The notes below the pieces were generated by a model. It was given only the letters and a program-made list of their open reading frames with translations, was not told the origin of the DNA and did not search any database. A stretch of 38,401 nucleotides of DNA from contig JAHDFQ010000020.1 in NCBI GenBank assembly GCA_020628085.1, forward strand, positions 1,775 through 40,175. The letters run 5' to 3'. Made by a program: the position numbers and the translations under genes. Of the stretch, positions 1,946-3,562 are shown piece after piece (positions within the stretch are counted from its first letter, which is position 1; each line of letters opens with the position of its first letter). This DNA is from Saprospiraceae bacterium. Its GTDB lineage: Bacteria; Bacteroidota; Bacteroidia; Chitinophagales; Saprospiraceae.

Positions 1946-3562
1946 TTTATAATCACCGATGATGATTCTTGATTATCTGTAGATAGGTTAGAGTTATCCT
2001 CATAATCATTACAGATTCCACCTTGTTGAAAAAAAGTGTAGGTATCTACAATTGTTCCATTGAGTGAAACCACAACTTGTATAAAATAACTAAGGTCAGG
2101 ATTATTGACAGGTTGATTTTGCATGTTGAGAACTAAGCCTTGACTTTCTCCAATAACTGTTCCTGGATACTGTGTAGAGAAAAACCCTTCATAACTCCAA
2201 GACCATTCGTATTCAAAATCATCTGGACTACCCCAATCTGTTGTTACTTCGTGAATAACTGTACAGTCAATTGATTCATCCGTAACTACATTAATATTGA
2301 TTTTAGGACTTAGTTCGAAGGCTGCAACTTTACAACCCGTCGTTCGTATCCGTCCTGCATTATTGGTTTCTTTTGTTCCATTCGTTGAAATCTCACCAGT
2401 AGCGATTCCGAAAAAATAGTCATAGGGATCTGAATAATGGGGAATAGGATTAAACCCTCTTAATACTGTTCCACGATCTTGAGCAGGATACAATACTGTT
2501 CCATTGGGTCCTAAAACTGCTGGAAGAGATAAGCTGTAATGGGCAGAACAATCAACAGGGAATCCAGGAGTACCAAAAACATGCTGTGCACCAAAAGTAT
2601 GCCCAATTTCATGTACAAATATATACGATTGTAGAGCTTTATCTATTGGTAATAAAATGTAAGCATCCTCGTATGTTGCACTTATCCAAGGTACGCAAGC
2701 TAAAAGATTATCTGACCAAGTAGTATCAATTTCTGGAGGCACTAAATATACGACAATATCTGCATGATAATCTTGGCGCAATTGTTGGACTGCAGGATCG
2801 TTAGCAAAATCATTGGCAGAGCCTGAACAGTTATCATCATAGTCAATCCAAGGAAAAGAAGTATATGAATAGTCAACGGTATGGGAAATATCATCATTTC
2901 CAAACACGAGATATAACTCTGCTATCATGAGATCAAGATAGGTCACATAATTTTCCTCTTCAACTAGCCAAGTTTCAGCTTCTGGAGTCATTAAAAAGAG
3001 CAAATCAACGTGTCCAGGACAATTACCATAACAATCTTCATCATTATCAGACGTTTCACGTATAGGAATATCCCCACAAGTCACTTCTTCTCCTGATGGT
3101 ACTTCTATCATGACGGATTCTACCATGTTAACAGGTAAAATATAGAATTTTCGTTGGGTCTGGTGATTTAAAATAATCCCAGAATAACCCGCTGTACTTT
3201 TTAAGATAGTTACGTCAAGTATCTCTTCCTCGGAATGACCACGCCACCTATAATTGTCATTATCTTCAAAAGATACGTCCACCGATTGCAATTCATTGGG
3301 TGGAATCATACCATTACTAATTGAAAAGTTAAGCCGACCTTCTGATTGCCAGCTTAAAACATCATTAATCTTAATATAGTCTTTGTACACAGCATTGTAT
3401 GAAAGAAAAAAATTATCGATAAATGCAGATTTACCTATATCTCTAGTCACAGAAGATTCTGGTACGACTTCGATAAAATGTTGTGCTTCACATAAAAAAA
3501 CTAGAAAGAAAGAAAGAAAGAAAGAAAGAAAGAAAGAAAGAAAGACGGATTTTGAGTTGCAT
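1736..3562 (-). CDS. Secreted zinc metalloprotease (M12-like) with repeat-encoded signal peptide and T9SS tail; two frame breaks
   Basis: The central open frame (1909 to about 3450 and beyond) holds the metzincin zinc motif HEIGHTFGAQH (three His and Glu), so this is a reprolysin-like extracellular peptidase. The coordinates span three pieces. The ATG at 3560-3562 begins MQLKIR and runs into a (CTTT)10 repeat. Repeat counts divisible by three (9 or 12) would join it to the mature frame through LSFF units, giving a signal peptide ending VFLCEA before QHF. With the ten copies here, translation stops after 24 codons. At the 3' end the frame stops at 1909, while a T9SS type A sorting domain (LPTGLYILV ... 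TQKIIY) continues in another frame to 1736. The protein is therefore probably not secreted in the state sequenced. An internal GTG at 3450 is the only other in-frame start seen and would lack a signal peptide. Confidence 0.8.
3505..3544. repeat. Tetranucleotide repeat (AAAG)10 / (CTTT)10, coding on the minus strand
   Basis: Ten perfect units. On the minus strand they lie six codons after the ATG at 3562 and are read as Leu-Ser-Phe-Phe per twelve bases, which would form the hydrophobic core of a signal peptide. Because the unit is four bases, each gain or loss changes the reading frame. This is the layout of slipped-strand phase-variable loci. It is analogous to the CTCTT repeats in the leader peptides of neisserial opa genes. 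Confidence 0.92.

Follow-up and report, generated by a model that had tools for sequence, protein, structure and literature searches.

Why should a reading frame for a secreted protease be separated from its start codon by a tandem repeat whose unit is not a multiple of three? The window, as the whole stretch of 38,401 nucleotides from a Saprospiraceae bacterium that was analysed is called here, holds such a locus on its minus strand. A metzincin frame of about 500 codons is preceded by a tract of 10 perfect CTTT units (10.75 units at 3503-3545 when partial units are counted), and an ATG stands on the far side of the tract. As assembled, the ATG is not joined to the protease frame and the gene is OFF. 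The sequence-only reading of the locus held that the repeat is at once the coding sequence of a signal-peptide core and an on/off switch. That view has survived every test run, and the locus is very probably a contingency (phase-variation) switch built into the signal peptide of a metzincin. The positions of its parts are given in Table 1.

Table 1. Parts of the metzincin locus, in window coordinates.
Feature	Position	Strand	Remark
Start codon and positively charged n-region MQLKIR	3545..3562	minus	ATG at 3562
(CTTT)10 tract, hydrophobic core (LSFF)n	3505..3544	minus	unit number sets the downstream frame
Leader end LVFLCEA, then predicted signal peptidase I site between A and Q	3484..3504	minus	inferred from the -3,-1 rule
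M12B/reprolysin-like metzincin frame, QHFIEVV...	1909..3483	minus	open throughout
Zinc-binding motif HEIGHTFGAQH (HExxHxxGxxH)	2581..2613	minus	
Second frame break, one base, in a short A run	1938..1941	minus	approximate position
C-terminal T9SS-type sorting domain	1739..1939	minus	intact; frame differs from the protease frame

The tract and leader of the window gene

The start and tract described by the sequence-only reading were found as claimed, and the consequences that it drew for different unit numbers were reproduced in silico. With 9 or 12 units the leader runs MQLKIR(LSFF)n-LVFLCEA-QHF into the metzincin frame, with 10 units it stops after 24 codons and with 11 units a TAG follows, so that one frame in three joins the ATG to the protease. 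A TAG is also reached with 8 units, and the series of unit numbers that open the gene is 6, 9, 12 and so on. A 4-base unit shares no factor with 3, so every frame of the repeat gives the cyclic peptide LSFF; slippage would therefore change only what follows the core and never damage the core itself. The core measures 13, 17 or 21 residues at 6, 9 or 12 units, with a mean hydropathy of about 2.5, and the 9-unit leader consists of an n-region MQLK(I)R, a 17-residue core and CEA-Q at the predicted cleavage site. The sequence directly 5' of the ATG is A-rich, as is usual at Bacteroidota starts. The locus has a repeat of non-triplet unit between its start codon and the gene body. No tandem repeat in the window scores higher than the tract, and 100 dinucleotide shuffles of the window give an expectation of 0 matches by chance. 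The gene body carries the HExxHxxGxxH motif and matches Reprolysin_5 with an E value of 1e-5 at 26.3 bits, just below the curated cut-off of 27.

Three other readings of the gene start were rejected. A lipoprotein leader would need a lipobox, and the residue at -1 to the C is L rather than a small one. A GTG start 3' of the tract would leave no leader at all. A role for the repeat as a promoter spacer is contradicted by its place, since the tract comes after the ATG and, in one of its phases, leads into the frame. Elsewhere in the window (26605-26743), imperfect CAA/CAG-rich repeats lie within a coding frame at 26180-26950 and probably encode a glutamine-rich stretch.

Tracts of at least five CTTT units occur in only two places of the 5.0-Mb genome, the window leader and the end of contig C34, where the tract forms the leader of a metzincin paralogue with 42% identity. 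The paralogue's tract (L014, G000:C34, end at 28281) has at least 8 units and the contig ends inside it; the leader reads FFLSFFLSFFSLSIQAQ-EHHFIEII..., and the frame is open through the paralogue's own sorting domain. When the pattern was relaxed to 3 CTTT units only one further place in the genome was added, and this genome pattern search found no further contig with at least 3 units that could carry the paralogue's missing start. An own-genome sample chosen around T9SS cargo (312 kb) gave leader repeats in none of 205 ORFs. That sample contained just two other sizeable tracts of non-triplet unit, (ATGA)9.5 at L184:2689-2726 and (GAAAA)7 at L177:10049-10083, both outside clear gene starts. 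A single-sequence search of same-genus genomes returned no close orthologue of the window gene; one of these genomes (G001) has a homologue, L114, with an (ATTC)9.75 leader.

The sorting domain and the second frame break

The description of the product as a T9SS-exported protease fits most of the tested relatives, which have an in-frame Por_Secre_tail domain, but not the window copy as assembled, in which the metzincin and its C-terminal sorting domain lie on either side of a one-base frame break. With the sorting domain out of frame, CTTT slippage alone would give a leader and protease without a readable sorting tail. The paralogue and the homologues have a single frame across the matching position, and the break may be a genuine lesion or may come from a mistake in the draft assembly, which consists of 284 contigs. 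The relatives that were tested exceed the Pfam cut-offs for a reprolysin match, and Por_Secre_tail (PF18962) reaches or exceeds its cut-off in 7 of the 10 repeat-bearing relatives tested (L114, L122, L118, L100, L093, L128 and L112). The homologue profile gave matches to ADAMTS-5 and, at the columns that correspond to window 1739-1939, to T9SS sorting domains of solved structure. The host genome, which has at least 150 TIGR04183 sorting domains, is classed as a user of the T9SS; the model for SprA (TIGR04189) matched nowhere, controls included, which makes that search uninformative. The domain matches place the repeat-bearing metzincins, taken as a class, among the T9SS cargoes; the exception is the window copy as assembled.

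With one break at the tract, another near the sorting domain and an OFF state as assembled, the window gene could also be a decaying pseudogene that holds a chance microsatellite, its frame breaks being ordinary debris. This explanation is unlikely. The window copy has no other stop in 522 codons and retains all of its zinc-site residues, the paralogue, which has the same tract, has a frame that stays open through the sorting domain to the last codon, and dozens of homologues combine a tract in the leader with an intact downstream frame. A second break is moreover compatible with a switch, since 6.6% of otherwise switchable gonococcal opa genes are likewise frameshifted downstream of their coding repeat (PMC13183285).

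Leader repeats on metzincins across the family

A homologue profile found matches in 311 of 398 genomes of the family. Start regions were fetched for roughly 100 top matches, which had been picked on score and completeness and blind to repeats, and repeats above strict lengths were counted from -60 to +150 of the frame opening, with all other ORFs of the same DNA as controls. The repeat thresholds were fixed before the control comparison and after a few loci had been viewed. Leader SSRs were present in 30/107 metzincins and 4/770 other ORFs (Fisher p ~2e-25, a value that overstates the number of independent observations since the metzincin rows are related). Relaxed thresholds gave a similar result (41/107 versus 16/770), and the enrichment was not materially changed when the window gene and its paralogue were left out. 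By batch the counts were 24/85 metzincins versus 2/428 controls and then 4/20 versus 3/112; one of the 3 second-batch control positives is a tandem metzincin that runs off the end of its stretch, and it is regrouped in the overall counts. The sequence-only reading had named homologues that lack the repeat and start elsewhere as evidence that would tell against it. That expectation failed, with at least 8 CTTT units in the paralogue, the ATTC leader of L114 and the leader repeats of the 30 metzincins.

About 70% of the homologous metzincins have no leader repeat above threshold, and when presence of the repeat is laid on a tree of 105 sequences it changes 22 times, at least 15 of these changes being forced by well-supported branches. 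The units include G10, G11, C9 to C12, (CT)9 to 15, TC12.5, CTTT, ATTC, TTCA, TTTCT and AACAC, as well as four 7-mers, three kinds of 8-mer and one 10-mer. The distribution on the tree suggests that the repeat-in-leader design arose repeatedly on metzincins across the family, with unrelated units. Among the few class-level homologues, one from another family (L196) carries G10 where its frame opens, and it is OFF.

At one locus (L147, G093:C67) tandem metzincins share a leader repeat of the 8-mer ACATCAGT, in 4.5 and 8.5 units, and as assembled one of them is ON and the other OFF. Two homologues (L018 and L021) have an early frame break in the coding sequence and no obvious repeat. At L109:4705-4765 the 6-base unit of a (CTTAAA)10 tract lies just 5' of the metzincin frame, outside the coding region, and may act at the promoter by varying its spacing; this locus is included in the 30 repeat-bearing metzincins and excluded from the coding tracts.

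The properties of the coding tracts bear on whether they switch the genes. Their unit lengths are 1, 2, 4, 5, 7, 8 or 10 bases and never a multiple of 3. An ATG stands shortly 5' of nearly every tract, and the tracts lie near the leader core or the cleavage site. Among 28 assignable alleles 8 are ON and 20 OFF as assembled, which is compatible with one third, and the 20 OFF alleles retain 500 to 650 open codons. The comparison set holds one assembly per species, and tract lengths were compared between orthologues. One pair with 96.5% protein identity has G8 and G11, a difference of 3 bases that leaves both OFF; other pairs have C10 (ON) versus C12 (OFF) and CT15.5 versus TC9.5. For the G8/G11 pair dN/dS is 0.16 at a dS of 0.08: purifying selection acts on the frame, even though neither allele, as assembled, can express it from its start. 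Values of dN/dS for two repeat-free pairs (L069/L129 and L067/L074) were not used, one pair being apparently mis-paired and the other saturated.

Slippage easily makes LSFF-rich leaders and signal peptides tolerate many sequences, so the repeats might be slippage-prone hydrophobic low-complexity sequence that is tolerated in unconstrained leaders, with the frame changes as harmful accidents. Repeats would then be expected on other secreted proteins, but they were seen in only 3/254 signal-peptide-like controls, and among other secreted proteases of the same genomes in 0/24 S8 subtilases and 0/25 M43 peptidases. Frame-keeping units of 3 or 6 bases would also be favoured, and none occurs in the coding tracts. 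Nor does tolerance of hydrophobic repeats account for the G/C homopolymers and the hydrophilic 7- and 8-mers, which form no hydrophobic core. This explanation is very unlikely. Since hydrophilic units (HNTTQ, PTTYNLQ, TSVHQYIS) and G/C homopolymers are used, frame switching rather than hydrophobicity would be the common factor.

It is still less probable that the gene in reality has a fixed, in-frame number of units and that low-complexity sequence was misread or misassembled here. The genome is a draft, and the paralogue's contig ends inside its tract. A tract of 40 bases, however, fits well inside a short read, and many independent assemblies show the pattern too, among them the few-contig G310 and G339, with units such as G11, C12, TC12.5 and 7-mers. 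Contig breaks are already known at the phase-variable tracts of meningococcal nalP and mspA (PMC3723659).

A search in the opposite direction looked for at least five CTTT units in the 398 family genomes whatever the gene. They were found in 33 genomes, with a pattern that misses tracts with a C four bases upstream, the window's tract included. Among 30 sampled loci, 16 form the beginning of a same-strand ORF of at least 120 codons: the reading starts M-K-K...(LSFF)n and then meets either a signal peptidase site or a lipobox. The rest include several that have the same look but are truncated by contig ends, and just two that belong with an opposite-strand ORF. The cargo includes the metzincin gene already seen as L122 (here L269), a protein with M43/reprolysin matches (L266), one with PKD domains (L267), one whose probable sorting tail scores under the cut-off (L272) and many without a Pfam match; 2 of the 16 are ON as assembled (L267 and L292). 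Taken together, CTTT tracts in the family code mostly for the signal-peptide cores of varied exported proteins, and CTTT leaders form a module more general than metzincins alone, one that includes other exported proteins and lipoproteins. In one genome (G219) six CTTT tracts have the same upstream letters (ACCT), and one of them (L273) lies in no clear gene start; these are perhaps a repeated element rather than leaders.

A proposed switch and its relation to known systems

In the proposed mechanism, slipped-strand mispairing at replication would add or remove CTTT units. A functional hydrophobic core would be present at any unit number, and one unit number in three would join the ATG to the protease. 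In the ON phase the metzincin would be made with a signal peptide and pass through the inner membrane by the Sec route, and copies whose C-terminal domain is readable in the protease frame would be exported by the type IX secretion system; in the OFF phase only a peptide of 20-30 residues would be made. With a paralogue that has a tract of its own, two copies would switch independently, and with the repeated origin of such leaders on the metzincin family part of the secretome would become clonally variable. A useful rate of slippage, secretion of the ON form and a benefit, possibly bet-hedging over costly or exposed secreted proteases, are inferred. In a broader form the proposal is somewhat less secure but still likely: this large family of free-living Bacteroidota would have a phase-variable secretome in which signal peptides have repeatedly been rebuilt from varied SSRs, mostly on M12B-like T9SS metzincins and, as (CTTT)n, on other exported proteins and lipoproteins, so that each cell would export a random combination and the leader would serve as an evolving switch module.

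Repeat-mediated phase variation is known mainly in host-adapted pathogens, mostly for surface antigens. Here it would recur many times, with unrelated units, on one secreted-protease family of little-studied environmental Bacteroidota, a group of bacteria that seems to gamble on which proteins are exported. Why a nonpathogen would vary its secreted proteases at random thereby becomes testable; candidate reasons are their nature as costly public goods, pressure from phages or predators and the defences of prey or hosts. The signal peptide may be a ready-made site for new switches, as any repeat with a unit coprime to 3 gives one and the same peptide in every frame and would keep the leader working while the frame flips. 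With 20 of 28 alleles OFF as assembled, gene callers will probably miss or truncate many such proteins.

The nearest parallel is the opa family of Neisseria, in which a leader repeat encodes part of the hydrophobic core of the signal peptide. Like the tracts described here, the CTCTT repeat of opa has a unit coprime to 3 and lies inside the coding sequence of the signal peptide, and several paralogues per genome switch independently. The opa genes differ in that they encode outer-membrane adhesins of human pathogens and share one repeat unit, whereas the proteins here are metzincins of Bacteroidota, most of them with a T9SS sorting domain, and the repeat unit varies from gene to gene. T9SS metalloproteases with a C-terminal sorting domain likewise combine a reprolysin/M12B-like catalytic domain with Por_Secre_tail. 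In Helicobacter pylori, a CT tract in the signal-peptide region of oipA sets the gene ON or OFF by frame (PMC10564699), and (CT)n or (TC)n tracts occupy the corresponding leader position at L096, L118, L128 and L142, although OipA is an unrelated outer-membrane protein from a different phylum. NalP of Neisseria meningitidis is a secreted serine protease with a coding poly-C tract that is ON with 7, 10 or 13 C (PMC3723659). It resembles the metzincins as a secreted protease switched by a coding repeat, but NalP belongs to the autotransporters (type V), its coding repeat is a homopolymer, and it is neither a metzincin nor a T9SS cargo. In open-licence full text, weak evidence on such a point, no paper joins Saprospiraceae with phase variation, and type IX secretion and phase variation come together only in passing mentions. 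The statement that no such design is known for a T9SS protease agrees with this literature, in which no paper found reports that SSRs make such cargo phase-variable. The mechanism itself is already known from opa and oipA; the setting and the scale are apparently new.
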